This document shows, one piece after another, positions 6,451-43,595 of a DNA stretch of 64,000 bases. The notes below the pieces were generated by a model that was not told the origin of the DNA, did not search any database, and saw only the letters and a list, made by a program, of their open reading frames with translations. Made by a program: the position numbers and the translations under genes. Source of the stretch: Desulfovibrio mangrovi (GTDB taxonomy: Bacteria > Desulfobacterota > Desulfovibrionia > Desulfovibrionales > Desulfovibrionaceae); NCBI RefSeq assembly GCF_026230175.1, contig NZ_CP104208.1, positions 2,976,001-3,040,000 on the forward strand. Direction: 5' to 3'. Numbering within the stretch: the stretch's first letter is position 1; each line of letters starts with the position of its first letter.

Positions 6451-7872
6451 TTAAAATGTTGTATTTTTCTCAGCTGTTACATCTCCAGCAACAACCCTGT
6501 TTCTTCCTGCGTTTTTGGCTTTGTAAAGTGCCTTATCTGCATAGTACATGACATCAGAAATGTTCTGACCATCCTCTCGCTCAACCACACCAATGGATAC
6601 TGTGAATGAAATGCTGCCATTATAGCCTTCAACCCGCAGTAGGGCCAAGGTTTGTCTGAGGCGTTCGGCTACGCTGGTAGCAACATCTATGGGTGTCTCC
6701 GGCAGGATAACCGCAAATTCTTCGCCACCGACTCTTCCAAAAATATCAATCTGCCGGAACATTCTGCGACAGGCTGTGGAAAGAGCTCTGAGAACATCGT
6801 CTCCGGCTGCGTGGCCGAATGTGTCATTGATGTTCTTGAAATAATCAATATCAAGCATCAGAAGCGATAGCGGCCTGTTATAGCGGCTGGAACGAACGAA
6901 TTCTTCTTCAGCCCTCTCCAGAAAACGATGGCGATTGTTTGCACCGGTGAGAGCGTCCGTTGTGGCTAAGTGGCTTAATTCGATCTCCAGTTTCTTTCTT
7001 TGCGTAATGTCGTCGAGAATTATCAGAATGCCTGAATATTTATCTGATACATCCAGCATTCTGGCAAAAAACACATCAAAGTATTGGTTTGCGCCGGATG
7101 ATTCGTATTTGACCTCCGTTCTGTGGAAAAGAAGATCTCCTTCAGAAAACAGGTTTGCCTCTTCTTTCAGCCACGGCAGATAGTCCGTAAAGGGCTTGCG
7201 AAGCCTTTTCATATTTCCATTTGCGGTGCTATGCCCCCCTGAATAGTATGTCTCGCCAGATATCTTTTCCAACCCCAGCAAGTTTGATGCGGCAAGATTC
7301 AACGTGTCCAGCAGTCCATCCTTATCTATCAGGAGTGCTGGTCTGGGGGTGCTTTCGAACACGGTAAGATACTTGTTTTTTTCATTGGAGAGTCGGCGGT
7401 TTGCTTCTTCAAGCGTAGAAATCTGCTCCTGGCTTTCCGTGGCCACCCACTCAGCACACAAAGCGATTTCAAATCGGTCGAAGCTTCTTAGGACAAAGCG
7501 CATAGATGCTGCTTTTATCTCTTCAGGGCACTTCTCTTCCACAAGGTCAATATATGTGTCCCTGTAGTACTTAAGGAGCCCGAGAAACATGCTTATAGTA
7601 ATGCCGCGTTCCCGGTGGCGCTTGGCTTCCAGCCTCCCGAACTCTGTAACAGGGTCGGAAGTATAATCTTCATCAGGGTTGAATTGCGGCTCTTCCCCCC
7701 CATGCTTATGAAGGCTCGTGCACAGGGCATTTGTCAGGCCGGATATGGACAAGCGCCAGGCATCGAGTAACGTCGAAGTATATTTGGTGAAATTATGCAG
7801 CTTGGCGTACGAAAGTATGCGCACCATAAGCCATGATTCATTGTCTCGTAATAGTTGTGAAAGTTGTTCCAT
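6451..7872 (-). CDS. PAS-GGDEF diguanylate cyclase
   Basis: 473-residue soluble c-di-GMP synthase. The N-terminal ~150 residues are helical and resemble RsbR-type or other globular sensor domains but lack a recognisable motif. A PAS-like segment (about 170-285, starting near NKYLTVFESTPRPALLI) precedes the GGDEF domain. The active site reads RVGGEEF, and RQID five residues upstream is a complete RxxD inhibitory site, so product inhibition is expected. The start at 7872 has GAGGAAG upstream. The gene is monocistronic and convergent with dnaX. No membrane segments are seen, so the signal is probably cytoplasmic. Confidence 0.9.
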   Translation of the reverse strand: MEQLSQLLRDNESWLMVRILSYAKLHNFTKYTSTLLDAWRLSISGLTNALCTSLHKHGGEEPQFNPDEDYTSDPVTEFGRLEAKRHRERGITISMFLGLLKYYRDTYIDLVEEKCPEEIKAASMRFVLRSFDRFEIALCAEWVATESQEQISTLEEANRRLSNEKNKYLTVFESTPRPALLIDKDGLLDTLNLAASNLLGLEKISGETYYSGGHSTANGNMKRLRKPFTDYLPWLKEEANLFSEGDLLFHRTEVKYESSGANQYFDVFFARMLDVSDKYSGILIILDDITQRKKLEIELSHLATTDALTGANNRHRFLERAEEEFVRSSRYNRPLSLLMLDIDYFKNINDTFGHAAGDDVLRALSTACRRMFRQIDIFGRVGGEEFAVILPETPIDVATSVAERLRQTLALLRVEGYNGSISFTVSIGVVEREDGQNISDVMYYADKALYKAKNAGRNRVVAGDVTAEKNTTF

Positions 7873-10110: not shown

Positions 10111-10494
10111 TTACAGGGTTACCGGAGCAGCTGCGGGCTGGTTGCCGCCGGTGATCTCGTACTGACGCACGTCGATGACTGCTTCGGACTGGTTCACCAG
10201 CTTGACCATACCCTTGATGATCACTTCGGCGCCGTTCATGGAGTAGTCGTGAATGCCGTCGAGCTTGTAGTACACTTCCTGACCGGGAAGCTGCAGGAAG
10301 TATTCGTCGTTCTGTTCGGCAATGGTGCCGGAGAAGACAACATCGTGACCAACGGTGATCTTGGCGGCCTTTGCGGTTTCGGGGGTGTAAGCCTTCTGAG
10401 CTGCCTGAGGAGCGGAGGCGATGAAGGCTGCGAATACGGCGCAAAGTACCAGTACGGCGGCGAAACGGGCAAACATGGACTGCTTGGTGGACAT
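10111..10494 (-). CDS. Secreted small OB-fold-like protein
   Basis: 127-residue exported protein of unknown function. A signal peptide (about residues 1-33, RFAAVLVLCAVFAAFIASAPQAA) precedes a compact beta-rich domain: VVFSGTIAEQNDEYFLQL, then VYYKLDGIHDY, then AEVIIKGMVKLV, then AVIDVRQYEI. The alternating beta strands ending in a valued xVRxYEI strand suggest an OB-fold such as the BOF/YgiW type, but that is inference. The start at 10494 has AAGGAAG upstream. It lies downstream of a sigma-54 activator gene on the same strand and has its own sigma-54-type promoter. Confidence 0.7.
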   Translation of the reverse strand: MSTKQSMFARFAAVLVLCAVFAAFIASAPQAAQKAYTPETAKAAKITVGHDVVFSGTIAEQNDEYFLQLPGQEVYYKLDGIHDYSMNGAEVIIKGMVKLVNQSEAVIDVRQYEITGGNQPAAAPVTL

Positions 10495-10661
10495 GGCGAT
10501 CTTCCTTTTATGCGGCCTTTGCCTACTGCCTTGGCTCGGGCCTTTTGGATATATGCTGTTCTGCGGTGTTGCCGTATGGCCTCCCCTTGAAGCCTTCGGC
10601 GGTTGTTCCGGATGGGCCGGTTTGCCGCAGAGCATTTTTGCATGTGCTTTGATTCTCCATA

Positions 10662-19467: not shown

Positions 19468-20046
19468 TTATGCGCAGTCGTGCTTATCCCACGGTTCACG
19501 GTTGTCGCGAGCCAGAGCACCTTCCATGCGTATGAGCGCTTCTTTCAGCTTGGTGGTTTCGTCCAGCTTCATGTTGGGGCTTTTCAGTGCCTGGTACAGA
19601 ATGGCACCGCAGCATTCGGTAGTGATGGGGAAGTCGGTGATGTAAGCCAGTGTGGGAACGATGTCCTTGGCGCAGGCGGCGCGTGCAACAGCGCCGGCCT
19701 TGGTGTTGATGCCGGAACCCTGCAGAACCAGAGCACCCTTGGCGACAACGGCGATGACGGTCTTGCGGTCTGCGGCGTCAACGATGGTTGCCAGCGCTGC
19801 GTCCAGAGCTGCAGTGTCTGCATTACCAAGGTCGATAAGACCCAGCGCCACGCCGCCTTCAATGGCAGCTGCAACGTCCTGAGGCTGCAGGGCGGTAACG
19901 GTCTCAGGAGCAACAGCAGCGTCGATTACGTCGCCAGCTGCGAAGTTTGCGAACTGTGCGCCCTTCTTGAGCAGCTTTTCAATGGAGGAGCCTGCGCCCA
20001 GTTCGGCGGCAGGTGCAAGTACGATAAGAGCTTTCTTCTCGGCCAT
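19468..20046 (-). CDS. Miniature, catalytically degenerate alkaline-phosphatase-fold protein
   Basis: 192-residue protein that appears to be a reduced relative of the 628-residue phosphohydrolase encoded just upstream. Shared signatures are the N-terminal pattern (KKALIVLA... EKLLKKGAQFANF against AALLGFD... EALVAEGALPNF) and the C-terminal block (AKDIVPTLAYITDFPI...GAILYQAL against LADIVPTICYATGNPI...GIMYQIM). The metal ligands of the larger protein (GFD, SDHG) are not preserved, so it is probably not an enzyme. The start at 20046 has AAGGAT upstream. It follows the larger gene by 76 bases, likely in one operon. A role as regulatory or structural partner is inference. Confidence 0.7.
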   Translation of the reverse strand: MAEKKALIVLAPAAELGAGSSIEKLLKKGAQFANFAAGDVIDAAVAPETVTALQPQDVAAAIEGGVALGLIDLGNADTAALDAALATIVDAADRKTVIAVVAKGALVLQGSGINTKAGAVARAACAKDIVPTLAYITDFPITTECCGAILYQALKSPNMKLDETTKLKEALIRMEGALARDNREPWDKHDCA

Positions 20047-22069: not shown

Positions 22070-22087
22070 TACAAAAACAGTGCCACA
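22070..22087 (-). promoter_or_regulatory. Sigma-54 promoter of the phosphohydrolase unit
   Basis: Minus strand TGGCAC-TGTTT-TTGTA matches TGGCAC-N5-TTGCA except that GC at -12 is GT. It ends about 60 bases upstream of the start at 22009. Confidence 0.68.
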
Positions 22088-22147
22088 CTTGTTTCTTCAA
22101 TGTTTTCGATGGAATGAGTGTGTTTGGCGGAAGGGTGGCAAGCTATG

Positions 22148-22163
22148 GCGACAACCCTGTCCC
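22148..22163. promoter_or_regulatory. Near-match activator palindrome GCGACA-N4-TGTCCC
   Basis: GCGACA-ACCC-TGTCCC differs by one base from the palindrome found exactly at 26261, 26333 and 28998. It lies about 65 bases upstream of the -24 element at 22085. Confidence 0.55.
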
Positions 22164-22380
22164 CATATGTCTGAGCGGTATTTCACAAGGCAGGCAGTCT
22201 TCTGTTAATATGATACGGTCACTGTTGTGGCTGCCATGGAGAGACTATGCGTATGCGACACAGGGGCGACAGTTATGACGCCTTTGCGCTCCGTGGGCTG
22301 GGCGCGGGACTGGTTGCGGGGGGATAAGGGATGAAGGGAGGCGCTGGAATGGATGGAGCAGGAGGCGGCAATCCGGATTT

Positions 22381-22425
22381 CTGTGTCCGAAAGATCGGAC
22401 ACAGCGACAGCGCTGACGTGCGACA
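22381..22425. promoter_or_regulatory. Palindrome and GCGACA half-sites upstream of the BCCT gene
   Basis: CTGTGTCCGA-AAGA-TCGGACACAG (22381-22404) is a perfect 10-bp inverted repeat. GCGACA follows at 22404-22409 and again at 22420-22425. They lie 80-125 bases upstream of the sigma-54 promoter at 22506, the usual range for enhancer sites. Confidence 0.6.
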
Positions 22426-22505
22426 GTTCCCGCAAGCGAAGGGATTGAGGTTCCTGTTCAGGGAAAACTATTGCAGGATAGTGGGTTACGTGTTTTTTGT
22501 GAAAA

Positions 22506-22522
22506 ACGGCACAAATTCTGCT
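22506..22522 (+). promoter_or_regulatory. Sigma-54 promoter of the BCCT gene
   Basis: CGGCACAAATTCTGCT has GG at 22508-22509 and GC at 22520-22521, ten bases apart, matching the -24/-12 consensus well. The predicted leader to the ATG at 22677 is about 145 bases. Confidence 0.7.
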
Positions 22523-22676
22523 TATTGCCAGCTCATGGATAGTCTGATGCGCTCGTCCAGCTGAGCAAAACGGAGTACTATGCAGCCGAAACACACGGTA
22601 CCGGCAGGGTTTTTGCCCTGTCGTAGCCTGAAACGGACAGCCCCCCTGAACATCCCAATTTGAGGAGCTGACACGT

Positions 22677-24230
22677 ATGTCTACGAATCATAACGGTGAA
22701 GAAGCGAATCTTCGTCCGGATAAATACATTCTCATTCCCGCTACCGCGGTACTTATTGCAATTATCGCCTGCTCCATTCTGTTCACGGAAGCTTGTGAAC
22801 AGTTTTTGAAGACTACTTATGCCGCTTTTACGCACACCACCGGCACTTGGTACCTTTGGGTGACTTTGCTGATGATACTGCTTTCCGGCTACTTCATTTT
22901 CAGTAGGTACGGCGAAATCAAGTTCGGTGAAGCGGATGAAAAACCTGAGTTCAACAACTATTCATGGATCGCAATGATGTTCTGTTCCGGCGTTGCCGGT
23001 GCAGTCATGTTCTGGTCCATTGCCGAACCGCTCTACAATCTGGCTTATCCTCCCATGTTTGCAGAGCCCCTTTCTCGCCAGTCCTATGAATGGGCCATGT
23101 CCTATGTGCTGTTACACTGGGGACCTGTTACCTGGCCCTGGTACATGGTGACTGCACTGCCCATCTGCTACATGTTCTACAAGCGCAAGAAGCCGGTTCT
23201 GCGCATCAGCTCTGCTGCTGAGCCTGTTCTTGGCGAGAAGACCAACGGCGGCATCGGCAAGGCAATTGAAGTGTTCTTCATTATCGGTCTCATGTTTTCC
23301 AACGCCGCGGTCATGGGCGTTTCCGTGCCGATTGTGAACCATGCTCTTGCAGTTACGTTGGGTATTGAACCGTCCTTCACGCTGGAACTGATTATCCTGG
23401 GTATCAGCGCTGTTATCTTCACTGCCTCGGTTTCTCTCGGCCTGAAGAAGGGCATCAAGCTGCTTTCCGATGCCAACGTGATCATCGCGCTGCTGATGGT
23501 TGCATTCTGCTTCGTAACCGGCCCGACGGTTTTCATTGTCGATAACTTCACCAGTTCTTTCGGACATATGCTGAATAATTTCTTCGGCATGATTTTCTGG
23601 ACTGATCCCTACACCTCCGGTTCCTTTCCGCAGGACTGGACCATTTTCTACGCTCTGTGGATGGCTTCCTACGGTCCCTTCATGGGCCTGTTCATTGCGC
23701 GAATCTCCCGTGGACGTACTGTTCGTCAGGTTGTTGCCATGGGCCTTGCAGGCGGCATTGCCGGCTCGTACATGATTCACGCTGTGTTCGGTGGCTACAC
23801 CCTCTTTGCACAGCTGAACGGCATTGTTGATGCCGTGGGTGTGCTCAACGCCAGCGGCGGCCCTGCTGCGTTGGTTTCCGTGCTGCAGTCTCTGCCCGCC
23901 GGTGCCGTTGTGCTCGTCGGCTACTGCGTATTTTCCACCATCTTTCTTGCAACCAGTGTAGACTCATGCGCCTATGTCATCTCCTGTGCGGCAACTACCA
24001 AGCTGACCCTTGGTGCTGAACCCACCCGCGGTCACCGCTTCTACTGGGCGGCTGTTCAGGCCGGTCTTGCTCTTGCTGCCATTACCATGGGCGGTTTGGG
24101 GCCGGTTCGCGTGTTTGCAAACTTCTCCGGTGCGTTGATGCTTATTCCCATCGCGCTTGTGGTTGTCTCGTGGTTCAAGATGGTCCGCGAGGACAAGGCG
24201 CTTGAGAATATTTGCAAAGAAAGCAAATAG
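22677..24230 (+). CDS. BCCT-family transporter
   Basis: 517-residue, 12-helix secondary carrier of the betaine/choline/carnitine family. Family landmarks are MFWSIAEPLYNLAYPP, HWGPVTWPWYMV and DWTIFYALWMASYGPFMG, then FIARISRGRTVRQ. The helix-4 aromatic residues of the betaine site (W189, W194, Y197 in BetP numbering, from memory) are kept, but in helix 8 the WWxxW set becomes W-M-x-x-Y. The substrate may therefore not be glycine betaine. The C-terminus is short, without a long osmosensing tail, so metabolic uptake rather than osmoprotection is likely. The start at 22677 has GAGGAG upstream. Divergent from the phosphohydrolase. Confidence 0.93.
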   Translation: MSTNHNGEEANLRPDKYILIPATAVLIAIIACSILFTEACEQFLKTTYAAFTHTTGTWYLWVTLLMILLSGYFIFSRYGEIKFGEADEKPEFNNYSWIAMMFCSGVAGAVMFWSIAEPLYNLAYPPMFAEPLSRQSYEWAMSYVLLHWGPVTWPWYMVTALPICYMFYKRKKPVLRISSAAEPVLGEKTNGGIGKAIEVFFIIGLMFSNAAVMGVSVPIVNHALAVTLGIEPSFTLELIILGISAVIFTASVSLGLKKGIKLLSDANVIIALLMVAFCFVTGPTVFIVDNFTSSFGHMLNNFFGMIFWTDPYTSGSFPQDWTIFYALWMASYGPFMGLFIARISRGRTVRQVVAMGLAGGIAGSYMIHAVFGGYTLFAQLNGIVDAVGVLNASGGPAALVSVLQSLPAGAVVLVGYCVFSTIFLATSVDSCAYVISCAATTKLTLGAEPTRGHRFYWAAVQAGLALAAITMGGLGPVRVFANFSGALMLIPIALVVVSWFKMVREDKALENICKESK

Positions 24231-24492
24231 CAGAAGTTTGACGAGTCGATAGAGAACTGTTCCGGCTGCGGAGCTGTTCCCTGCCGCCGGAAATTCCGTA
24301 TGGTTGGAGCCTGTCTGTTATCAGATCGGTGGTGTGACCCGGAACGCTGAACAGGAATCAGCTTTCTGTACAGTGTGGATGAAGGTGCAGAAAGCGTTTC
24401 TTAGCATACCCCGCATGGGCGCGGTGCCCGCTGGCCATGAGGGAGAATGTGTACAGCTGTTTCGACATGCTAATGTGATTCGCTGCTGAAAA

Positions 24493-24536
24493 TAGGCCGG
24501 CATGGCGCATAGTGCGTCATGCCGGCCTTGTTCATT
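24493..24536. terminator. Bidirectional terminator between BCCT and activator genes
   Basis: AGGCCGGCATG and CATGCCGGCCT pair around a GCGCA-type inner stem. T-rich sequence follows on both strands (TTCATTTT plus, TATTTT minus). It serves the convergent BCCT and activator genes. The 260 bases between the BCCT stop and this site hold no gene. Confidence 0.8.
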
Positions 24537-24594
24537 TTGAGTGAGGGGTAAACCGTTCCTGTTCCGGTTGGCATGCAGGTCGGGTTGGAGCTGA

Positions 24595-26103
24595 TCAGTT
24601 CGCGTTATGTCGGCCGATGTTGTATTTTTTTAGTTTGCGCTGAAGAGTGCGAATGGTAACGCCGAGCATGTCTGCAGTTTTCCCCTTTTTCCAGTTGTTT
24701 TGCTCGAGGGCAAAGAGGATTCGCTGCATTTCAATCTTGCTCTTGGCATCAGAAAGGGAGCCGTCAGCCGGCGGTGCAGGGGTATAGACTTGACCCGGTG
24801 TATCTGCAGAGCTGGTTTGCACAGCATCATTGGTCTTCGTAGGGGTTGAAGCGCTGTGCTCTTCCTGCGGGGTAAGCGGCGCAAAGTCGAAGATGTCGGG
24901 ACAGGGGGTTTCCGATGCGAGAACCAGTTCGCCAAAGGCCCAGTAGTTTTCCAGCGTGTTTTGCAATTCACGCACGTTGCCGGGCCAGCTGTATTTTACA
25001 AGGCGCTGCATGACGTTTCTGGGGACGGGCTTGGTAATTCCCTTCTTGCGGGCATAGTCGGCCACAAGCAGGGGGATGTCTGAACGGCGCTCCCGCAAGG
25101 GCGGCAGGACAATGGGCAACACGTGAATGCGGTAGTAGAAGTCGGCCCGCATGGCCTTTTTCTTCACCAGTTCGCTTAAATTCTGGTTTGTTGCTGAAAC
25201 AAGACGGAAATTGGATGTCCTGACATCGTTCGAGCCGACCGGCGTATAGGATTTGCCCTCAAGCGCACGGAGCAGTTTAACCTGCAGGTTCAAGGGCAAG
25301 TCGGCTATTTCGTCGAGAAAGAGGGTGCCGTCATCTGCAGCAGCCAGATATCCTGGGCGATTGGTGGTGGCGCCGGAGAAGGCCCCTTTGACATGGCCGA
25401 AGAACTCGCTTTCCAGCAACTGTTCCGGAATGGCCGCACAGTTAACCGGAATATATCTGCCCTTTACGCTGGCCATCTCATGGATGGTCTGTGCGGCAAG
25501 GTCTTTGCCTACGCCTGTTTCGCCATACAGAATGACACTCATGTTGGTTTTGGCAGCCTTGAGCAGCAGGCTGTATACTTTCTGCATGGCCTCACTGGTG
25601 CCGACTATGCGATTGAGTCCCCCTGTGCTGGTAACAGACGTACGTAGCAGCGTGTTTTCCTGTCTCAGTTTATGTTCGCGAGCTTTCTGTGCGGTGACGT
25701 CCATCATGATCCCTTCAAGGTAGATGCACTTTCCAGCCTCATCAAACACCCCTTCGCCTTGGTCCCATATCCAGCGAATCTCATCAGAGGGTAGGCGAAC
25801 CCTGTAGTAGGTTTCGTAACTCTTCCGTTCCTTGATGGCTTCATGGATGATTGTGCGCATCAGGGCCAGATCTTCCTCATGCGTCATGCGTTCAACCGTA
25901 TTGGTCGGGTTGCTCATCACCTCTTCAACGGTCATATCCAGGATCTTCTTGCACCCTTTGCTGGTAAAGATCATCCGGTATTCGTAGCTGCGCTCGACAA
26001 CGCAGCGATAGGCCATGCCCGGAAGATGGTTGAGCAGTCTCGTGTGACTGGCTTCAATCTCGTTCAGGCGCTGTTGTAGAATCTCGTATGCTTTTCTTTC
26101 CAT
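24595..26103 (-). CDS. PAS-domain sigma-54 activator
   Basis: 502-residue enhancer-binding protein and likely master regulator of the surrounding units. The N-terminal coiled segment and PAS domain (about residues 15-140, with IRWIWDQGEGVFDEAGKC and YLEGIMMDVTAQK) probably sense a cytoplasmic signal. The AAA+ domain has GETGVGKD, the sigma-54 loop as GAFSGA rather than GAFTGA, GTLFLDEIADL and WPGNVRELQNTLENY. A Pro/Thr-rich linker precedes the Fis-type helix-turn-helix GKTADMLGVTIRTLQRKLKKY. The start at 26103 is the Met directly before the coiled segment; an upstream extension to 26298 looks non-coding. It is divergent from osmC, whose control region carries two copies of the shared palindrome. 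Confidence 0.9.
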   Translation of the reverse strand: MERKAYEILQQRLNEIEASHTRLLNHLPGMAYRCVVERSYEYRMIFTSKGCKKILDMTVEEVMSNPTNTVERMTHEEDLALMRTIIHEAIKERKSYETYYRVRLPSDEIRWIWDQGEGVFDEAGKCIYLEGIMMDVTAQKAREHKLRQENTLLRTSVTSTGGLNRIVGTSEAMQKVYSLLLKAAKTNMSVILYGETGVGKDLAAQTIHEMASVKGRYIPVNCAAIPEQLLESEFFGHVKGAFSGATTNRPGYLAAADDGTLFLDEIADLPLNLQVKLLRALEGKSYTPVGSNDVRTSNFRLVSATNQNLSELVKKKAMRADFYYRIHVLPIVLPPLRERRSDIPLLVADYARKKGITKPVPRNVMQRLVKYSWPGNVRELQNTLENYWAFGELVLASETPCPDIFDFAPLTPQEEHSASTPTKTNDAVQTSSADTPGQVYTPAPPADGSLSDAKSKIEMQRILFALEQNNWKKGKTADMLGVTIRTLQRKLKKYNIGRHNAN

Positions 26104-26260
26104 GCCTACTTCTCTGTTCTTTGGTCTGACCAGAAGGATGCATATAGCGCGCCGTTTTGCGGACATTTCTGTCCTGTTATGTAACGGCTTGAAATTGTGC
26201 AGTTTGGTGTTGAGCAGAGGCGTGGGAGTGTGCGCAGGAAGGAATTGGGATCGAAAAAAG

Positions 26261-26276
26261 GCGACATGGGTGTCGC
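26261..26276. promoter_or_regulatory. Activator palindrome GCGACA-N4-TGTCGC, copy 1
   Basis: Exact GCGACA-TGGG-TGTCGC, 158 bases upstream of the activator start and about 160 bases upstream of the osmC -24 element. It could serve both divergent genes. Confidence 0.72.
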
Positions 26277-26332
26277 GGCACTGCTCGGTGCGACGCATGC
26301 ATGACTGTCTGATTCCGTCTCCAATCCTGCAT

Positions 26333-26348
26333 GCGACATGCGTGTCGC
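26333..26348. promoter_or_regulatory. Activator palindrome GCGACA-N4-TGTCGC, copy 2
   Basis: Exact GCGACA-TGCG-TGTCGC, 72 bases from copy 1 centre to centre (close to seven helical turns) and about 85 bases upstream of the osmC sigma-54 promoter. Confidence 0.74.
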
Positions 26349-26432
26349 TCTCTATGGAGATTCAATAAGTGCAAGTCAAGAAGAATAATCACTTCTCCTA
26401 TTAACATGCTGTTTTTATTGAATCTGAATTGC

Positions 26433-26449
26433 TTGGTATGGACTATGCT
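26433..26449 (+). promoter_or_regulatory. Sigma-54 promoter of osmC-lpd-gcvH
   Basis: TTGGTATGGACTATGCT has GG (26435-26436) and GC (26447-26448) ten bases apart, fits the consensus at most positions, and lies 52 bases before the osmC ATG. Confidence 0.65.
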
Positions 26450-26500
26450 TTTAAGGCCCGAATGGACGGCTTGTCCAAATAATTACGAGGGAGAGCTCAA

Positions 26501-26926
26501 ATGGCCCAAGTCATTGTTTCATACGACCGCGAAGGCGAAAAGCAGACTATTCACACCGGCTCCAAGATTCTTGGTGATCTGGATATCAAATACGATGGCG
26601 TGCCGGAAGACGAACGCGGCGGTACTGCAAAGCAGCTGCTGGCTTCTTCCGCCCTGTATTGTTTCTGCGGTGCGCTGGGCAAGGCGCTGGAAACCCGCGG
26701 GGCAAAGTACGAGCGCATCACCGGTACCGCTACGCTTGAGACCGGCGTGGATGATAAAAAGCGTGCCCGTGTGGTGGGTATAGCTCTGGCCGTGACCGTG
26801 TACATGGACGAAGAGTTCGAGTTCATCTTTGACCGTGTGGAAAAGATTATGCAGCAGGGATGTCTGGTTACTGCCTCTCTGCATGAGGCCTTTCCCATCA
26901 CCTACAAGCTATATCACGAATTTTAA
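26501..26926 (+). CDS. OsmC-family protein
   Basis: 141-residue cytoplasmic protein of the OsmC/Ohr fold, members of which reduce organic hydroperoxides using two cysteines. One cysteine region is LLASSALYCFCGALGKAL and the other MQQGCLVTASL, in the usual places. GDLDIKYDGVPEDERGGTAKQLL resembles the N-terminal swapped strand region. The start at 26501 has AGGGAGAG upstream. It is first in a three-gene unit with lpd (32-base gap) and gcvH. Whether it acts as a peroxidase or binds another electrophile here is unknown. Confidence 0.85.
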   Translation: MAQVIVSYDREGEKQTIHTGSKILGDLDIKYDGVPEDERGGTAKQLLASSALYCFCGALGKALETRGAKYERITGTATLETGVDDKKRARVVGIALAVTVYMDEEFEFIFDRVEKIMQQGCLVTASLHEAFPITYKLYHEF

Positions 26927-26958
26927 CCGGCTCGCCGCCTCAGCAAACAGGAGAAGCA

Positions 26959-28377
26959 ATGCCATCTATTACGATCATTGGTGCGGGCCCGGGCGGCCAC
27001 ATCGCCGCGTTTGACGCTGCCCGTCGGGGGGCAGCTGTCACGCTGGTCGAGAAAGGCGAAGTGGGGGGAACCTGTCTGAACACAGGCTGCATTCCCACCA
27101 AGACCATCAAGGCTTCGGCAGAAGCGCTTGAGACTGCCGGGCGTCTTGCCGAGTTTGGCATCCGTACAGGTGTGGAATCCGTTGGATATCAGGCAGATAT
27201 GCCGGCCATTGTTGCGCGCAAGGAGCGGGTACGCAAAATTCTGTGTGGTGGTCTGGAAAAGACTTGTGCCGCCCTTAAAATCCGGCTTGTGCGTGGTGCC
27301 GCAGAATTGGGGGCCAACCGCAGCGTGCTGGTGCACACGGAAGAAGGAACTGAACAGATACATAGTGATGCCGTCATCATCGCTACGGGGTCCAAAATCC
27401 TCGATCTGCCTTCACTTCCTGTGGACCACAAACATATCATCAACAGCGACGATGCGCTGAATCTGGACCACGTTCCCGCCCGTATGATCATCGTGGGCGG
27501 CGGGGTTATCGGTTGCGAGCTGGCCTTCATCTACCGCGCTTTCGGTGCGGAGGTAACCATAATTGAAGGTCTGAATCGTCTGTTGCCCATTCCCTCCGTG
27601 GATGAAGAGATGAGCCGCCTGCTGCTGCGGGAGGCCAAGAAGCATGGCATTCGCGTGGAACTGGCACGCACTGTGAAGCAGGCAACGGTTGAGAATGGTG
27701 TCGTGCAGTGTGTTCTCAGTCCTTCTCCCTTCGTGGAAGGCGTTACCGGTCCTGATGCTACGGTTGAGACGGATATGGTGCTTGTGGCCGTGGGGCGTTC
27801 TCCCAATACTGAAGGACTCAAGCTGGCAGAAGCTGGTGTGGAAACTGACAACCGCGGCTGGATCAAGGCTGACTTGAGAATGCGCACCTCCGTGGAAGGG
27901 GTTTACGCCATTGGTGACGCGCTCGGACCTGCGCGTATCATGCTGGCGCATGTGGCTTCCGCAGAAGGTCTTTGTGCCGTTGCAAACTGCTTTGGCGAAG
28001 AAAGAGAGCTGGACTACAATGTGATTCCGGCCGGTATCTTCACTTCTCCCGAAATGGGGACTGTGGGGCTTTCTGAAACGGAAGCTGCACAGGCCGGCAT
28101 CGAGTTTCGCTCTCAGGTTTTCCAGTTCCGGGAACTGGGCAAGGCGCAGGCCATGGGCGAACTGCCGGGGTTATTCAAGCTGATCTGCGAAAAGGAAAGC
28201 GGCAAGATCATCGGTGCCCACATTGCAGGGGCGCACGCAACCGACCTTATAGCGGAAGCGGCGCTTGCCATGGAAAAAGGCCTCACTGCAGCCGATCTGG
28301 CCCACACCATCCATGCGCACCCCACGTTGGCCGAAGGGCTCTACGAGGCCGCAGAAGGATGGCTGAGAGGCCGTTAA
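26959..28377 (+). CDS. lpd: Dihydrolipoamide dehydrogenase
   Basis: 472-residue FAD-dependent disulfide oxidoreductase that reoxidises protein-bound dihydrolipoamide with NAD+. FAD motif GAGPGGHIAAFDAARRG, redox pair in GGTCLNTGCIPTK, NAD motif IVGGGVIGCELAFIY, and the C-terminal catalytic His in HAHPTLAEG are all present. Full length. The start at 26959 has CAGGAG upstream. It sits between osmC and gcvH, so its likely substrate is the adjacent lipoyl protein. No E1, E2 or gcvT/gcvP gene is nearby. Confidence 0.95.
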   Translation: MPSITIIGAGPGGHIAAFDAARRGAAVTLVEKGEVGGTCLNTGCIPTKTIKASAEALETAGRLAEFGIRTGVESVGYQADMPAIVARKERVRKILCGGLEKTCAALKIRLVRGAAELGANRSVLVHTEEGTEQIHSDAVIIATGSKILDLPSLPVDHKHIINSDDALNLDHVPARMIIVGGGVIGCELAFIYRAFGAEVTIIEGLNRLLPIPSVDEEMSRLLLREAKKHGIRVELARTVKQATVENGVVQCVLSPSPFVEGVTGPDATVETDMVLVAVGRSPNTEGLKLAEAGVETDNRGWIKADLRMRTSVEGVYAIGDALGPARIMLAHVASAEGLCAVANCFGEERELDYNVIPAGIFTSPEMGTVGLSETEAAQAGIEFRSQVFQFRELGKAQAMGELPGLFKLICEKESGKIIGAHIAGAHATDLIAEAALAMEKGLTAADLAHTIHAHPTLAEGLYEAAEGWLRGR

Positions 28378-28413
28378 TCCATTCCCCCTATTGAGTACAG
28401 CAAAGGAACCATC

Positions 28414-28803
28414 ATGAGCGAACTTACCTATCCTGAAGATATTCTCTATCACGCCGAGCACACCTGGGTGCGTATTGCGGATGACAATACCGCCGTTGTG
28501 GGTATTACCGATTTTGCCCAGGACCAGTTGGGAGAAGTGGCCTTTGTGGACCTGCCTTCCGTTGGTTCTGCTTTTGCCGCAGGCGATGAATTCGGCACAG
28601 TTGAGTCAATCAAGGCTGTCAGCAGTCTCCATATGCCTGTTTCCGGCACGGTTACTGCTGTGAATGAAGCCCTTGGCAGTGATCCGTCGCATGTGAATAC
28701 CTCCCCTTATGGTGAAGGCTGGATGCTGCGCATTACTGTTGCGGCAGATGCCGACCGTTCCCACTTGATGAATGATCAGGATTATGCCGGGCAGCTCAAG
28801 TAG
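28414..28803 (+). CDS. gcvH: Glycine cleavage H-like lipoyl carrier protein
   Basis: 129-residue lipoyl-bearing protein. The N-terminus LTYPEDILYHAEHTWVRI and the lipoylation site FGTVESIKAVSSLHMPVSG are characteristic of GcvH; Lys in ESIKAVS is the attachment residue. VVGITDFAQDQLGEVAFVDLP is also typical. The start at 28414 has AAAGGAA upstream. Last gene of osmC-lpd-gcvH. As the partner gcvT and gcvP are absent here, it may act in glycine cleavage encoded elsewhere or carry another group; sulfur-oxidising systems use GcvH-like carriers. Confidence 0.92.
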   Translation: MSELTYPEDILYHAEHTWVRIADDNTAVVGITDFAQDQLGEVAFVDLPSVGSAFAAGDEFGTVESIKAVSSLHMPVSGTVTAVNEALGSDPSHVNTSPYGEGWMLRITVAADADRSHLMNDQDYAGQLK

Positions 28804-28875
28804 CTGGGCGGTTTCCGAACGATACTCCCAAGACTGAGGTCCCCCGTCCCTCCGGGTGGGACGGCCTTGCGCCAG

Positions 28876-28910
28876 AGCGGCTTCCTGTGCAGGAAGCCGC
28901 TTTCGTTTTG
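28876..28910 (+). terminator. Terminator of osmC-lpd-gcvH
   Basis: GCGGCTTCCT and AGGAAGCCGC pair around GTGC, then TTTCGTTTT; 73 bases after gcvH. Confidence 0.85.
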
Positions 28911-28990
28911 TCAGCTTCTGGGAACGGTCCGCGGTGTCGTGTTTTGCTGGGGGCAAACGTAACTCGCTTGAATAGTGATCTCTCTTTGGC

Positions 28991-29013
28991 TGTCGCTGCG
29001 ACAATGGTGTCGC
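28991..29013. promoter_or_regulatory. Activator palindrome, copy 3, with an extra half-site
   Basis: TGTCGC-T-GCGACA-ATGG-TGTCGC: the exact palindrome is 28998-29013, with one more TGTCGC half-site at 28991-28996. It ends 63 bases upstream of the sigma-54 promoter at 29076. Confidence 0.75.
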
Positions 29014-29075
29014 CTTTTGAATCGCCCCAGAGATTTTTTCAGGCATAATTCCATTAATAACAGATAGATGCGTGT

Positions 29076-29092
29076 TTGGCGCGACATGTGCT
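29076..29092 (+). promoter_or_regulatory. Sigma-54 promoter of the EamA-YitT unit
   Basis: TTGGCGCGACATGTGCT: GG at 29078-29079, GC at 29090-29091, exactly ten bases apart, and a near-perfect match to YTGGCACG-N4-TTGCW. The predicted leader to the ATG at 29302 is about 200 bases with no clear gene in it. Confidence 0.75.
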
Positions 29093-31187: not shown

Positions 31188-32024
31188 TTACCGTTCGACC
31201 TTGATAAGGACTTCCGTGACGAACTGTTCGCTATTTCTCGTGGACCAATAGTCGGCTACGTAGCGTTCATAGGACTCATCCGCGAAGGCATATGAGTAGT
31301 GTTCCGCCCACTTGAACATCTTTTTGTAGGTTTCCCCGATGTTTTCATGGGGGCCTATGTGATAGCAGCTGGCCATCATGCATTCTCCGAAACTGGTCAG
31401 GGATTCGACCGGAGCCGAGTGCAGGGGTTTTTGCAGAATGCGAACATGCTTGGGGTGTTCATCCAGCCTTTTCTTGAGCGATAGGAAATTGATGACAACC
31501 GGACCCGTTACTTCAATGTTCAGGCTGTCAATGTAGTTGGTCCACTCAATGTTTATAATGCTACCCTTGAAGTCGTTATTAAATACCTGTTTCTGCTGAA
31601 CATATTCTGTGGTTTCAATATATTTTATCGAAACCTCCCTGCTGTTGTTGGCCATTACGATCTCTGCTTCGGTAATAAGATCATGCCAGTCTTTTATGGA
31701 AATATACTGCTTTTGAATTTCATTTTTAAGTCTCTTAAGTTCTTTTATTTTACTTATAAATGAATGTTTTAATGTGTTGTATGAAGAGTTGGATTCAATT
31801 CCTTCGATAAAGAAACGCATTTCATCGAGAGTGAATCCCATCTGTTTGTAATATTTGATGATGGGAACTGTGAGTATGGCGTCGCGCGTGTAGTATCGGT
31901 AGTTGTTATGGTCGTGTCGAATTGGAGTTATGAGGTTGATATCATCATAATAACGTAGCGTTTTTTTTGAGACATTGCAGATGCGGCTGACGTCTCCTAT
32001 GGAATATTTCGCTTTGCAGGTCAT
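31188..32024 (-). CDS. MerR-family regulator with GyrI-like effector domain
   Basis: 278-residue transcription regulator. The winged helix-turn-helix reads YSIGDVSRICNVSKKTLRYYDDINLITP, followed by a long dimerisation coiled coil and a C-terminal GyrI/BltR-like ligand-binding domain with paired aromatic strands (KHVRILQKPL, MMASCYHIGPHENI, TEVLIKVE). The start at 32024 has GAGGAAC upstream; the frame extends upstream but looks non-coding. The middle of the gene (about 31560-31780) is much more AT-rich than the neighbours, suggesting transfer. Its target is not obvious: no divergent efflux gene is intact next to it. Confidence 0.85.
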   Translation of the reverse strand: MTCKAKYSIGDVSRICNVSKKTLRYYDDINLITPIRHDHNNYRYYTRDAILTVPIIKYYKQMGFTLDEMRFFIEGIESNSSYNTLKHSFISKIKELKRLKNEIQKQYISIKDWHDLITEAEIVMANNSREVSIKYIETTEYVQQKQVFNNDFKGSIINIEWTNYIDSLNIEVTGPVVINFLSLKKRLDEHPKHVRILQKPLHSAPVESLTSFGECMMASCYHIGPHENIGETYKKMFKWAEHYSYAFADESYERYVADYWSTRNSEQFVTEVLIKVER

Positions 32025-32194
32025 GATGTTCCTCTGCTGTGTCAGTAGATGTAGTATGGATAACTGTGCGTACTGATGACATGTGTATGTGATGGAATAT
32101 TTGCTTGCCTGTTGAGAGGGGGCTGCGTAGCGTCTCTCCCGCTCATAATGTCGCGTTTGTGTATTTGCATAACGTGTTCCAAAAAGTTTTATCA

Positions 32195-32437
32195 GGGGGA
32201 GCGCCACTTGTGAGCATGGCTGCGCCAGCCGTTGGAAATTGTGGCGACAAGATTGCGCGTGAGGCGTCATGGCTTGCCTCTTCTTTCAACAGGTAAGCAG
32301 GCATGCAGTGTTTTGTGCTTCGGGCTGCACACGTTCAAGTGCCGTCATGGGAGATGATGAAAAGAGGCTTGCGATAAGAATGATCGCAAGCCTTGTTGTT
32401 TGAGAGAGCTGCCAGCCCGTTGGTTATGCGTTTCCTT
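32195..32437 (+). repeat. Long direct repeat, copy 1
   Basis: About 243 bases repeated at 34544-34787 in the same orientation with scattered differences. The longest exact block includes AGGTAAGCAGGCATGCAGTG and the text around GTGCTTCGGGCTGCACACG. The copies flank the glycosyltransferase gene. Confidence 0.88.
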
Positions 32438-40567: not shown

Positions 40568-41101
40568 TCAAATCAGGCTTATGCTGAGCTCGGTTGTGGA
40601 TGCGTCGCCTTCCTGCTGTTTTTGCAGGCGCTTTTCTTCCCATGCGATGACCCTGTTGGTCAGCCCTTTCAGGAATTGCGTGGCAATTTCGGGCTTCTGT
40701 ATAAGGTCGGTCAGAATCTTCTTTCGCGGCAGCACAAGACAGATCGTCGGGGTGGCCGCCCTTGCCGTAAAGAGCCGCCGGACATCGGCAACAAGGGCCA
40801 TGGCGCCGAAGAACTGCCCTGCCTCTATGCTGCCGCAAGGCACCTTGCCTTCGGGGTCGGCTGCCGTCTTCCTGTAAAGGTGCAGCGTGCCGGAGATGAT
40901 GATGTAGGCCTTGTCATCCACCTCTTCTTGTCTGAAGAGAGGGTCGTTCGTCTGGTAGCGGATGCGTTTGCACAGATAGGCATAGGCCCGCTGCGACTCC
41001 AGCGGCAAAGCGGAGAAGAGCGGAATGTCGCGCAGCAGCTCGAGATTCTTGTCGAATTCGCATTCTACGCAAACGTTATCCTGATTTGTGGATAAGCTCA
41101 T
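40568..41101 (-). CDS. Cyclic-nucleotide-binding-domain protein
   Basis: 177-residue cytoplasmic protein with one cNMP-binding beta-barrel: LLRDIPLFSALPLESQRAYAYL, then DPLFRQEEVDDKAYIIISG, GSIEAGQFFGAMALVADVRR and TARAATPTICLVLPRKKI. The phosphate-binding cassette (FFGAMAL...RRLFTARA) is close to consensus. No DNA-binding helix-turn-helix follows, so it is not a Crp-type factor. Its start overlaps the 3' end of the upstream ABC exporter gene by 26 bases, with GAGGAG as ribosome site, pointing to a joint function, perhaps ligand control of the exporter. The C-terminus may continue through a frameshift. Confidence 0.85.
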   Translation of the reverse strand: MSLSTNQDNVCVECEFDKNLELLRDIPLFSALPLESQRAYAYLCKRIRYQTNDPLFRQEEVDDKAYIIISGTLHLYRKTAADPEGKVPCGSIEAGQFFGAMALVADVRRLFTARAATPTICLVLPRKKILTDLIQKPEIATQFLKGLTNRVIAWEEKRLQKQQEGDASTTELSISLI

Positions 41102-43595
41102 ACAGCGCTCCTCTCTTGTTCAGCAGCTCTTCATAGCCGCCTTGTTCGATGATCTTGCCAGCCTTCAGAACGGCCACCTTGTCATACCCCTTCAGTGTGT
41201 CGAGGCGGTGAATAACGGAAATGACGCTCGCCTTGCCCTTCCACTTCTGCTCCAGCAGGTTCTGAATCCGTGCCTGCGATGCGTTGTCCAGGGCTGATGT
41301 GGCTTCATCCAGAATGAGTATGGGCGGTTCCTTGAGAAAGGCCCTTGCAAGTGCCACCTTTTGCCGCTGCCCGCCGGAGAGCCTGTCCCCCATGCTGCCG
41401 ACATCGAACTGCAGCCCTTTCTCCAGCACTTTTTCCAGCGCGTTTTCCAGAATCAGCAGCTGATTGAGCCTCTGCTGCACGCGTTCCTGCGCCCCTGCGC
41501 TGTCGGATTTGATGTGACCGTAAATGATGTTGTCCCCCAGCGACAGGGAACCGAGGTAACTGGCACGGCAATAGAAGGTGAAGGCCTCCGGTGCATGGGC
41601 TTCCGCATAGCTGCGGAAGGCTTTGCGTACCTCCGGTATGCGCGAGGGCAGGGTGGAGGGCATGGGCACCAGCGTGTGCTCGCTGGGGGTGAAGCGCAAT
41701 GCCAGCTTGAGCAGCTGGTTGCTTTCTGCTTCCGTAAGCGCAATGGAGGGGGCTTCACCCCGCTGCTTTTCGCGCAGCACCATCTCGTCGACCAGTGAGG
41801 CATAGAGTTCAAATTCTTCCTTGCGGATGATGCTGTTCTCGAAGATTTCATCGTTCTCGCCGGACATCTCAATGAGTTCGACGTTGCGTTCCGCCGCATC
41901 CCGTCCGATGTTTACCAGCAGATCGAACAGGCTGTATTCGTAGAGGAAGCGCAGAAAGAGCTTGTTTTCAGGCAGGGATTCGAAGGTGAAATCAGGATCG
42001 TCCGGAGCGCCGAAAACTATGTTCTCGGCCAGCGAGCTGTAGCGAAGGAATGTGTTTTCCTCAATGAACTCAATGTCATGATCAAGGTCCTCGCCGTGGA
42101 TCAGCTGGAACTGCTCACGGGCACTGATGATGCTTTGTACCAGTTCCGGCTCATGCTTTGCGTCAACATGTGAGCGCAGGCCGAAACTGAGCACATCGAC
42201 GAACAGCCCGACCTGCTGCACAACTTCGATGACCCGGTCAAGGCTCGGGCGTTTGGTTTCATCCCATTCTCCGCTTTGCAGCAGTTTGGCATCGCAGGAA
42301 TAGAGCAGGTTGTCATACAGCGTGCCGTTGAAAATGAACGGATGCTGCGCCACCACGCCCATGTTGCAGGCGATATCCTGCTTGGAAAGAGTGCCCACCT
42401 CGTGACCATCCAGTGCGATATGGCCGCTGGTGTACTGTTGCAACTGGGCAATGACCTTTGCCAGCGTGGACTTGCCGCTGCCCGAAAAGCCAACCAGCGC
42501 CATATGCTCGCCCGGTCTCACCTGAACGTTCATGTGGTCCAGAAGCCGAATGTTGCCTGCAACCACAAAGGAGACATCCTGCACGTCTATGTTTCCTGCC
42601 AGTTTCAGCGGGGGGCGTTCGTGCACGTGGGGTTCGAACTCAGGCTCAATGTCGAAATAATCCATGACCTGCGCGTAGCGCACCTTGCTGTCCTGATAGA
42701 GCTGGTAGAACTCCATGAGCTCCTTCCACGGGTCGTAGACCTTTTCGTATGCGGAAAGGAAGGCAACCAGTGCACCAAGGTCGAAGCGGCCCTTGATGGC
42801 CATGATGCCGCCCACGATGAAGAGAATGAACGGCCCGAGAGACTGAAAGAAGTTGTTCACAAACTTGATGCCGAATTTCAGAACGTGCAGGCGCATCCCC
42901 TGCGTATACAGACGGGAAATGTTGCCGCCGAACTTGCGTCCTTCCAGCAGGAATGAGCCGTTGCCGTGCACCTCGTGAATACCGGATATGGATTCACCCA
43001 CTGTGCCGCTGGCTTCGCGCAGGGTATTGGTGCGTTGGCGATTGGTTATGTTGTATTTTTTTTGAAGGAAGGGAATGACCACCATCTCCAGCGGGTAGAT
43101 GCTGATGGAAAGGGCGGCCAGCAGGGGGTTGAGCCAGAACATGTAGCCCGCGAAGGCGATAAAGGTAAGGATGTTGACCAGCGGGGCCGACAAGGCGCTG
43201 CCGGTGAAGATGGCCATGGGCTCCAGCTCGGACATGAGGCTGGAAATGACCTGACCCGGAGATGAGCGCCGGAAAAAGTGCAGGGGAAGCGAAAGGACAT
43301 GCTGAAAGAGCTGCTCGCGTATGGCCAGCAGGGTTTTTTGTCCGATGTAGCCTTGCAGGATGTTGATAACGTATTTGAGGCTGCCAGCCAGAAATACGGC
43401 TCCCATGTAAAGCAGACAGTAGAGAACCAACGCTTCCATGTCCTTGAGACCGATGGCCTGGTTGATTATCCTTTTTTGCATTTCCAAAGGGAAAACACGC
43501 GCGGCCACGGTAACAAGAATTATGGCTACCAGCAGGATCTGAAGTCTGGTATTCTTGTACCATACCCAGTAATATAAGGACCGTTTTGTGACCAT
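41076..43595 (-). CDS. ABC exporter with large insertion in its nucleotide-binding domain
   Basis: 839-residue fused half-transporter. Six membrane helices (about 18-300) precede the ATPase. Walker A is GFSGSGKST (369-377), the Q-loop glutamine is near 417 (VVAQHPF), but the signature LSGGQ is not reached until 739, followed by ILILDEATSALD. The Q-loop to signature distance is over 320 residues instead of about 65, so some 250 residues are inserted. The post-Q-loop motif recurs three times: TLYDNLLYS (425-433), SSLAENIVFG (520-529), SLSLGDNIIYG (683-693). All catalytic motifs remain. It overlaps the cyclic-nucleotide-binding gene. Substrate unknown. Confidence 0.9.
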   Translation of the reverse strand: MVTKRSLYYWVWYKNTRLQILLVAIILVTVAARVFPLEMQKRIINQAIGLKDMEALVLYCLLYMGAVFLAGSLKYVINILQGYIGQKTLLAIREQLFQHVLSLPLHFFRRSSPGQVISSLMSELEPMAIFTGSALSAPLVNILTFIAFAGYMFWLNPLLAALSISIYPLEMVVIPFLQKKYNITNRQRTNTLREASGTVGESISGIHEVHGNGSFLLEGRKFGGNISRLYTQGMRLHVLKFGIKFVNNFFQSLGPFILFIVGGIMAIKGRFDLGALVAFLSAYEKVYDPWKELMEFYQLYQDSKVRYAQVMDYFDIEPEFEPHVHERPPLKLAGNIDVQDVSFVVAGNIRLLDHMNVQVRPGEHMALVGFSGSGKSTLAKVIAQLQQYTSGHIALDGHEVGTLSKQDIACNMGVVAQHPFIFNGTLYDNLLYSCDAKLLQSGEWDETKRPSLDRVIEVVQQVGLFVDVLSFGLRSHVDAKHEPELVQSIISAREQFQLIHGEDLDHDIEFIEENTFLRYSSLAENIVFGAPDDPDFTFESLPENKLFLRFLYEYSLFDLLVNIGRDAAERNVELIEMSGENDEIFENSIIRKEEFELYASLVDEMVLREKQRGEAPSIALTEAESNQLLKLALRFTPSEHTLVPMPSTLPSRIPEVRKAFRSYAEAHAPEAFTFYCRASYLGSLSLGDNIIYGHIKSDSAGAQERVQQRLNQLLILENALEKVLEKGLQFDVGSMGDRLSGGQRQKVALARAFLKEPPILILDEATSALDNASQARIQNLLEQKWKGKASVISVIHRLDTLKGYDKVAVLKAGKIIEQGGYEELLNKRGALYELIHKSG

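Follow-up and report, generated by a model that had tools for sequence, protein, structure and literature searches.

The gene cluster described here lies in a 64,000-nucleotide stretch of the Desulfovibrio mangrovi genome (the window; positions 2976001-3040000 of contig C1, NZ_CP104208.1, in the single-contig 3.95-Mb genome G000). It is built around the gene of a sigma-54 activator with a PAS domain and contains a hydrolase of the alkaline phosphatase (AP) superfamily, here named PDE, its 192-residue partner, a BCCT carrier, the osmC-lpd-gcvH genes and an EamA-YitT pair (Table 1). Comparison with related genomes shows a conserved gene set that shares the palindrome GCGACA-N4-TGTCGC and predicted -24/-12-like sites. 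The initial annotation proposed that the PAS protein controls these units through sigma-54; conservation in 40 regions of other genomes strongly supports a single PAS-AAA+-Fis activator in this role, and the sequence evidence strongly suggests that the compound handled is choline-related. To the combined reading, a sigma-54 regulon of this activator serving the use of a choline ester, we assign a probability of about 0.6; a possible sulfate step is judged separately below.

The activator and its predicted binding site

Homologues of the activator (E<=1e-120) were present in 42 of the 199 family genomes sampled. They are 48-83% identical, the window's own protein excluded, and because of this range some may be paralogues. 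The comparison set of 40 regions (645 kb; loci are given L numbers) drew on 38 of the 41 activator genomes besides G000; G039, G067 and G125 were omitted, and the G039 region (L193) was added later, outside the counts. Genes in the relatives were called with a self-made codon-usage caller.

The AAA+ sigma-54 interaction domain of the activator matched PF00158 with 202.8 bits, and its GAFTGA-type loop reads GAFSGA. The C-terminal Fis-type helix-turn-helix (HTH) matched PF02954 with 43 bits (cut-off 22). The codon-usage caller favoured a start at 26103 over a longer ATG at 26298. As expected of an enhancer-binding protein, palindromic sites are found 5' of the -24/-12-like target promoters.

Pattern search recovered the three exact palindromes and the one-mismatch copy listed in the initial annotation, together with a second one-mismatch copy between the PDE and BCCT genes that the list did not contain (Table 1). 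The three exact copies are the only ones in the whole genome; all are inside the cluster, each lies 5' of a -24/-12-like site, and the reversed-pattern control gave none. The palindrome is not a common element scattered over the genome away from sigma-54 sites. When one mismatch was allowed, 21 sites were counted in the genome as compared with 16 for the control, which is near chance genome-wide; five of the 21 fall within this 6.9-kb stretch. The 14-base core CGACA-N4-TGTCG occurred five times, three times in the cluster, and the two outside matches had no site scoring >=6 within 500 bp. In view of these sites and the near-control single-mismatch count, targets elsewhere in G000 were rejected.

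Of the 4096 6-N4-6 palindromes that can be formed, GCGACA was the most frequent in the 40 regions, where 52 copies were spread over 24 of them. The runners-up were its own variant ACGACA (11 copies) and then a palindrome with 6, and the other 89 permutations of the letters of GCGACA reached at most 4 copies each. These counts, together with the genome-wide ones, rule out a chance origin. Fifty-two of the 62 exact copies in the 38 genomes sit inside the fetched regions. Among the family genomes 70 of 199 contained the exact palindrome, 29 of the 42 with an activator homologue versus 41 of the 157 without one. Contact between the activator and GCGACA-N4-TGTCGC appears probable from this distribution.

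Sites upstream of the cluster genes

The -24/-12-like sites were scored against a consensus with a self-made scheme. All four units that had been credited with a promoter of this type have such a site. Twenty-six sites score >=6 on the two strands of the window; taken alone, the four would be weak evidence. They become credible because they are conserved in relatives: L064, L067, L068 and L070 have a counterpart of the PDE-unit site, scoring >=6, in a comparable position, and the EamA-YitT site has identical letters in L064 and one changed letter in L066.

The 350 bp 5' of unit-leading genes in the 40 regions were then searched for the palindrome, allowing one mismatch unless stated. It was present in 15 of 18 osmC upstream regions, 14 of these with a site scoring >=6 downstream of it, and in five of six regions preceding ABC (ATP-binding cassette) carrier genes. 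For BCCT genes it was found in 10 of 21 (17/21 with two mismatches), and a site scoring >=6.5 was present in 20 of 21. The corresponding background values for other genes were 1/104 for the palindrome and 8/104 for sites scoring >=6.5. Low counts were obtained for MerR (1/8), YitT (1/5) and the 192-residue partner (1/21), and none for GcvH (0/6) and the OsmC-like protein of the DsrE kind (0/3).

The activator gene itself had a palindrome within 350 bp in 25 of 38 cases, and a site scoring >=6 in only 6 of 38, none with a palindrome upstream of the site. This suggests that the activator may tune its own gene by an autoregulation of another kind than the -24/-12 route.

Table 1. Features of the cluster, numbered from the first letter of the window (aa, amino acids)
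Feature	Position	Strand	Basis
192-aa partner of PDE, shrunken AP-superfamily protein, C-terminal ..REPWDKHDCA	19468..20046	-	alignment, model
PDE, AP-superfamily hydrolase, 628 aa, PF01663 93 bits	20123..22009	-	Pfam
-24/-12-like site of PDE unit, TGGCACTGTTTTTGTA	22070..22085	-	consensus score
Palindrome, 1 mismatch	22148..22163		pattern search
Palindrome, 1 mismatch, PDE-BCCT intergenic region	22266..22281		pattern search
Weak palindrome, 2 mismatches	22404..22419		pattern search
-24/-12-like site of BCCT, CGGCACAAATTCTGCT	22507..22522	+	consensus score
BCCT carrier, PF02028 428 bits	22677..24230	+	Pfam
Sigma-54 activator, 502 aa, PAS_3 + AAA+ with GAFSGA + Fis-type HTH	24595..26103	-	Pfam/NCBIfam profiles, translation
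Palindrome, exact	26261..26276		pattern search
Palindrome, exact	26333..26348		pattern search
-24/-12-like site of osmC-lpd-gcvH, TGGTATGGACTATGCT	26434..26449	+	consensus score
OsmC-like protein, two-cysteine form (C54, C121), PF02566 31.7 bits (cut-off 27.5)	26501..26926	+	Pfam, alignment
Dihydrolipoyl dehydrogenase Lpd, TIGR01350 458.8 bits (cut-off 408.8)	26959..28377	+	NCBIfam
GcvH-type lipoyl carrier, TIGR00527 134.5 bits (cut-off 115.85)	28414..28803	+	NCBIfam
Palindrome, exact	28998..29013		pattern search
-24/-12-like site of EamA-YitT, TGGCGCGACATGTGCT	29077..29092	+	consensus score
EamA-family transporter, PF00892	29302..30267	+	Pfam
YitT-family membrane protein, PF02588, PF10035	30239..31102	+	Pfam
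MerR/GyrI-like regulator, relative of choline-utilisation activator	31188..32270	-	NF053782 418.9 bits (cut-off 450)

Link to choline

CutC is the choline trimethylamine (TMA)-lyase. It exceeded the TIGR04394 cut-off in L068, L069, L074, L080, L100 and L202, always with more than 1050 bits. In L068 (G186) the genes osmC-lpd-gcvH-bacterial microcompartment (BMC) aldehyde dehydrogenase-cutC-cutD follow each other on one strand with gaps of 13-30 bases, and a palindrome with one mismatch (10735) and a site (10650) precede the whole run. In L202, from a genome of another family of the phylum (G212), the order is PDE, partner, BCCT, activator, osmC, lpd, gcvH, cutC; osmC has upstream of it an exact palindrome (14483) and a -24/-12-like site (14621), and cutC begins 30 bases past gcvH. 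In G182 cutC adjoins osmC-gcvH. The BMC-aldehyde dehydrogenase-cutC-cutD run of L069 (G073) is preceded by an exact palindrome (7387), by a symmetric one with two mismatches (7643) and, after both of them, by TGGCACATTCGTTGCA at 7830.

CutC over the cut-off was found in 31 of the 42 activator genomes versus 14 of the 157 others. Homology of the window's MerR regulator sets in at residue 83, so its start probably lies inside the open reading frame. It shares 60% identity with the MerR protein beside the cut operon of G000, and the latter protein does pass the choline-activator cut-off. That operon (L155, C1:3196583-3198946) comprises CutC, aldehyde dehydrogenase and BMC-type genes besides its own MerR activator. 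In G117 a second CutC-like frame with one internal TGA and one TAA was noted at C1:3906944-3909310.

The nearest solved sequence to the BCCT carrier was DddT, followed by CaiT-type carriers; DddT and carnitine-type BCCT carriers transport zwitterions. BCCT was present in 23 regions and an ABC carrier in 8, never together in the 40; in L070-L073 and L075 an ABC carrier stands in place of BCCT. For the L073 carrier the best NCBIfam models were SaoA/SaoP, below cut-off; a literature search on the Sao names gave one review, in which two of them are mentioned once each. In L072 a Desulfovibrio-type outer-membrane porin is nearby. Chemoreceptor-family proteins, identified by a profile scan in L094 (2526-4664) and by similarity in L067 (1028-2938) and L097 (1879-3429), are encoded near palindromes, which suggests that the compound may be a nutrient towards which the cells swim.

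The earlier idea was that the cluster imports, processes and exports a single compound. Import and processing have good support, and the compound can be narrowed to a choline-related one. That all steps serve one compound is an inference, and export of a product by EamA-YitT is a guess from the family names.

The hydrolase and its cysteine-arm partner

Residues D14, T53, D365, H369, D419, H420 and H556 of PDE were invariant in all covering rows of a 29-row alignment; we presume them to be candidates for the threonine nucleophile and the metal ligands. Foldseek placed the AlphaFold2 model (mean confidence score, pLDDT, 67) nearest to the structures of the alkaline phosphatases SPAP/PafA, to NPP and to phosphonoacetate hydrolase, with further matches to ENPP6 and to ENPP7 with phosphocholine. 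Pfam match, fold of the model and candidate residues agree in assigning PDE to the PF01663 branch of the AP superfamily. Its match to the phosphonoacetate hydrolase PhnA model TIGR02335 was 27.3 bits, below the cut-off of 407.55. The PDEs that occur with BCCT or ABC carriers have a loop of four tyrosines (YYYY) in common.

The C-terminus of the partner reads ..EPW[D/E]KHDCA, with a penultimate cysteine, in 35 of 35 rows. Its AlphaFold2 model has a pLDDT of 88.5, and the tail is of low confidence (63 and 48). The best Foldseek matches were YejM and arylsulfatase A, the best E being 1.9e-3 and none reaching E<=0.001; no Pfam or NCBIfam match to the partner was found, and its profile matched a C-terminal segment of the hydrolase (36% over 56 columns). 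The model and the alignment indicate that the partner is a shrunken relative of the hydrolase fold carrying a flexible penultimate-cysteine arm. What the initial annotation termed a phosphohydrolase pair consists of an AP-superfamily hydrolase, PDE, and this shrunken relative, which ends in ..HDCA. A relationship of the partner to DsrC was considered and rejected, as the fold matches the AP superfamily and the sequence matches the hydrolase.

The partner was detected (E below 1e-60) in 40 of the 42 activator genomes and in none of the 157 others; at E<=1e-20 two additional genomes, G028 and G135, were found through a fused form. PDE was present in 32 of the 40 regions, every time with the partner, and the two probably work together. 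In the fused form, found in four genomes, a single hydrolase of 648-667 residues carries the same kind of tail. It adjoins a TRAP (tripartite ATP-independent periplasmic) carrier, an activator relative and a chemoreceptor in G065 (L188); a TRAP carrier, OsmC, Lpd and GcvH in G135 (L190); an activator relative, a chemoreceptor, an OsmC-like and three DsrE/DsrH-like proteins in G028 (L189); and a chemoreceptor in G060 (L192). L189 also contains two genes that resemble TRAP genes in size only. Because all four fused proteins have FHNH or FHHH instead of the YYYY loop, they probably act on another substrate.

PDE relatives also occur in named genomes, among them records of Desulfovibrio, Mailhella, Bilophila and Pseudodesulfovibrio. 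A loose search found a tail-like pattern in 42 of 48 PDE loci of named genomes; in five of the six loci without it the sequence breaks off in the gene or at most about 130 bases away from it, which is not so for the sixth, L142. Remote PDE homologues (33-34%) were also seen in L204 and L205, from another family of the phylum. There they adjoin genes that have the size, and only the size, of tripartite tricarboxylate carrier genes, and the 192-residue partner was not seen in the examined stretches.

Two exchangeable thiol modules

The lipoyl lysine of GcvH (K67 in ESIK) was invariant in 14 rows. The window protein has no cysteine, and as it lacks the two extra cysteines of LbpA its assignment as LbpA was rejected. 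Lipoyl-dependent Ohr/OsmC peroxidases consist of OsmC, a lipoyl carrier and Lpd; by sequence, the putative operon osmC-lpd-gcvH, with a two-cysteine OsmC, provides the genes of such a system.

Lpd was found in 15 regions and a TusD-like protein in 10, and no region of the 40 contained both: the Lpd-GcvH and the TusD-like/DsrE modules replace each other. This exchange was reflected in OsmC. In an alignment of 27 rows (L071, L072, L090 and the second L076 copy being left out) C54 was kept in all. Position 121 was cysteine in 16 of 16 proteins of the first kind, 13 of them with Lpd in the region (L079, L080 and L100 without), and serine in 11 of 11 of the second kind, which are accompanied by the TusD-like protein in 10 cases and by another DsrE-like protein in one (L096). 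The second kind scored 25.6 bits with Pfam OsmC, just under the cut-off. Cys90 of the TusD-like protein was invariant in 10 rows. In L087 three DsrE/DsrH proteins each pass the Pfam DsrE or DsrH gathering score, and the NCBIfam Tus models were below cut-off. The G039 region (L193) holds both OsmC kinds (5674-6111 and 10187-10618); Lpd was not seen in this stretch. Taken together, these observations strongly suggest that a thiol relay belongs to the pathway.

Sulfite physiology and a possible reaction

AprA and DsrA were searched for in 46 genomes, the 42 activator genomes and G212, G525, G028 and G135. AprA exceeded its cut-off in 31, and in G163 it is split over contig ends. It was not found over the cut-off in 14 (G039, G042, G067, G073, G089, G103, G125, G127, G135, G147, G155, G169, G183 and G525), several of which are more than 95% complete. 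Among them, G039, G073 and G135 gave full-length hits to the AprA model of 363-389 bits (cut-off 641.75), proteins of this type being found alongside a true AprA elsewhere as well; in G125 the hit covers 110 residues and lies at the end of a contig. DsrA exceeded its cut-off in 41 genomes; fragments were found in G154 and G175, and it was weak or absent in G135, G169 and G525. Eleven of the 14 genomes without AprA over the cut-off thus have DsrA, three of them (G039, G073 and G125) with the weaker or partial AprA matches. Because DsrA but not AprA passes, sulfite would be respirable in these 11 and sulfate probably not, which is compatible with, and no proof of, a sulfite-yielding reaction. 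The choline sulfatase BetC (TIGR03417) was not found over its cut-off in any of the 46; 30 had weaker matches, the best of 129.6 bits as compared with a cut-off of 433.45. Cleavage by a canonical choline sulfatase was rejected on this ground.

The following scheme would accommodate the data. The activator would bind its palindrome about 60-240 bases 5' of the -24/-12-like sites (distances from the window). A small zwitterionic, choline-containing compound may be taken up by BCCT here, and by the NitT/TauT-like ABC carrier in some relatives, and would be cleaved inside the cell by the hydrolase and its cysteine-arm partner. The freed choline could pass to CutC, while the other half of the substrate would be accepted by the cysteine arm and released by the thiol module, here OsmC with lipoyl-GcvH and Lpd fed by NADH, elsewhere the OsmC-like protein with DsrE/DsrH-like proteins. 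EamA-YitT might export a product.

Choline-O-sulfate, from which sulfite would arise as the second product and serve DsrAB, is judged the likeliest single substrate, albeit still an unlikely one. Doubtful, too, is the specific chemistry that it would imply, a thiol-dependent 'reductive sulfatase' converting choline-O-sulfate to choline and sulfite without ATP. PAPS (3'-phosphoadenosine-5'-phosphosulfate) reductase, which forms Cys-S-SO3-, is a model for such sulfo transfer. The sulfo group would be moved to the C-terminal cysteine of the partner, or to the enzyme's own tail in the fused form, and sulfite would be released by either thiol module. Sulfite could then go straight to DsrAB, so that no ATP need be spent on activating sulfate, and choline to CutC; with TRAP carriers, other sulfate esters might be imported. 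Such a reaction would fit the 11 cluster genomes with DsrA and no AprA over the cut-offs, the lack of a canonical choline sulfatase over its cut-off in the 46 genomes, and the four-tyrosine loop shared by the BCCT/ABC-type enzymes and missing from the four TRAP-type fused ones.

Alternative explanations

Several observations weigh against a choline-ester regulon of this activator. The genomes are related to each other, so that Fisher values for the activator-linked counts overstate independence. The exact palindrome was not found in 13 of the 42 activator genomes, nor CutC over the cut-off in 11 of them. In the upstream test the palindrome preceded PDE in only 9 of 30 cases (in several regions PDE trails BCCT on the same strand), EamA in 4 of 16, a second EamA-like family in 3 of 16 and chemoreceptor genes in 2 of 5; it was absent 5' of DsrH-like (0/8) and porin (0/5) genes and within 350 bp of CutC as leading gene (0/3). 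In L069 the two palindromes and the site are 928, 672 and 485 bases away from the first called gene. The cut operon of G000 itself, about 200 kb away at 3.196 Mb, has no palindrome with up to three mismatches and no site scoring >=6 in the 660 bases upstream; since it has neither, cutC does not look like a target in G000, and this operon was rejected as a member of the regulon. In L193 a first-kind OsmC occurs together with a DsrE module, so the split between the modules is imperfect. The fold neighbours of PDE (model pLDDT 67) are phosphate and phosphonate enzymes, not sulfatases. Finally, both the regulon and the choline ester are read from sequence comparison, with a gene caller and a promoter score of our own making.

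The main competing explanation, unlikely but to be taken seriously, makes the hydrolase a phosphodiesterase or phosphatase of the type of mammalian ENPP6, specific for choline and acting on glycerophosphocholine or phosphocholine, and osmC-lpd-gcvH a separate lipoyl-dependent peroxidase guarding oxygen-sensitive enzymes such as CutC. The NPP-like fold and the ENPP6, ENPP7, PafA and phosphonoacetate hydrolase matches favour it, as do the conserved candidate nucleophile and metal ligands; the four-tyrosine loop would suit a trimethylammonium group, and reduction of OsmC/Ohr by lipoyl proteins and Lpd is known. However, no genes for glycerol or phosphate were recognised by profile scans among the cluster genes of the window, and the carriers scanned were BCCT, NitT/TauT-like ABC and TRAP, an objection softened by the distant locus L191, where major facilitator superfamily (MFS) carriers have weak, below-cut-off matches to phosphoglycerate carriers. 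Such an enzyme also leaves unexplained the invariant cysteine arm and the replacement of Lpd-GcvH by DsrE/DsrH-like proteins where OsmC has lost its second cysteine.

It is improbable that the compound is a betaine- or dimethylsulfoniopropionate (DMSP)-like osmolyte or an organosulfur zwitterion instead of a choline ester, the proximity of cut genes reflecting a shared habitat. DddT, the nearest solved carrier, is a DMSP carrier, DsrE-like proteins suggest sulfur, and both the activator genomes without CutC and the siteless cut operon of G000 would be accounted for; yet such an osmolyte agrees poorly with cutC behind palindrome and site in the osmC units of G186 and G212, with its position beside osmC-gcvH in G182, and with a relative of the MerR choline activator inside the cluster. 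A third alternative, in which some other regulator recognises the palindrome and the PAS protein only happens to lie nearby, is very improbable. In its favour, the sequence of a site does not reveal which protein binds there, there is a MerR regulator close by, and the 41 palindrome-bearing genomes without an activator homologue would fit; against it, MerR occurs in only 10 of the 40 regions, sigma-54 promoters require an activator of the PAS protein's type, and the palindrome both accompanies this activator in 29 of 42 genomes and mostly precedes its gene.

Two stretches of an 839-residue protein at 41076-43595 of the window, outside the cluster, matched MsbA/type I secretion ABC transporters.

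Comparison with known systems

Many sigma-54 regulons have been described in D. vulgaris and other Desulfovibrionales, most of them of one to four operons (PMC4641369, Kazakov et al. 2015). The cluster resembles them in that a one-component PAS activator is encoded next to its sigma-54 operons and the sites are short, and the GAFSGA loop also occurs in DVU2827 of that study. It differs in that no choline or betaine use is among the functions in Table 1 of PMC4641369; the terms betaine, OsmC, glycine cleavage, lipoamide and choline were not found by a search of its main text, where targets are given as locus numbers that were not matched to the present genes.

The choline (cut) pathway of D. 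alaskensis G20 (Dde_3282; PMC4215793) likewise has CutC together with microcompartment and acetaldehyde-converting genes. In contrast to that locus, cutC in G186 and G212 joins osmC-lpd-gcvH behind the palindrome, and in the account of the cut locus in PMC4215793 no mention was found of the hydrolase, the cysteine-arm partner or the thiol module. Lipoyl carriers of GcvH type, DsrE-like proteins, which can carry thiosulfonate, and Lpd are encoded close together in sulfur pathways (PMC6067878, PMC4175335). LbpA is marked by two extra conserved cysteines (PMC6067878); the GcvH of the window differs in lacking them and passes GcvH models, and no Hdr gene was recognised in general profile scans of the window proteins.

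With ENPP6, the NPPs and phosphonoacetate hydrolase, PDE shares the AP-superfamily fold and the candidate catalytic residues; it differs in the cysteine arm, which is placed on a separate shrunken homologue or, in the fused form, at the enzyme's own C-terminus. DsrC/TusE carriers and PAPS reductase have a C-terminal arm with a conserved cysteine near its end. The partner has the same kind of arm on a different fold, that of the AP superfamily.

A literature search, the coverage of which leaves out most subscription papers, turned up no paper recognised as describing this cluster. New as compared with the systems above are the tie to choline, the two-part AP-superfamily enzyme with a cysteine arm and the mutually replacing thiol modules. 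The analysis supplies a regulator, a DNA site and a gene set for a conserved pathway in sulfate- or sulfite-respiring bacteria. As choline turnover by such bacteria makes TMA and sulfide is their respiratory product, a system that possibly couples choline and sulfur bears on TMA and H2S in the gut. The split AP-superfamily enzyme with its cysteine tail, and a lipoyl/DsrE exchange that tracks the loss of an OsmC cysteine, amount to specific and testable chemistry.

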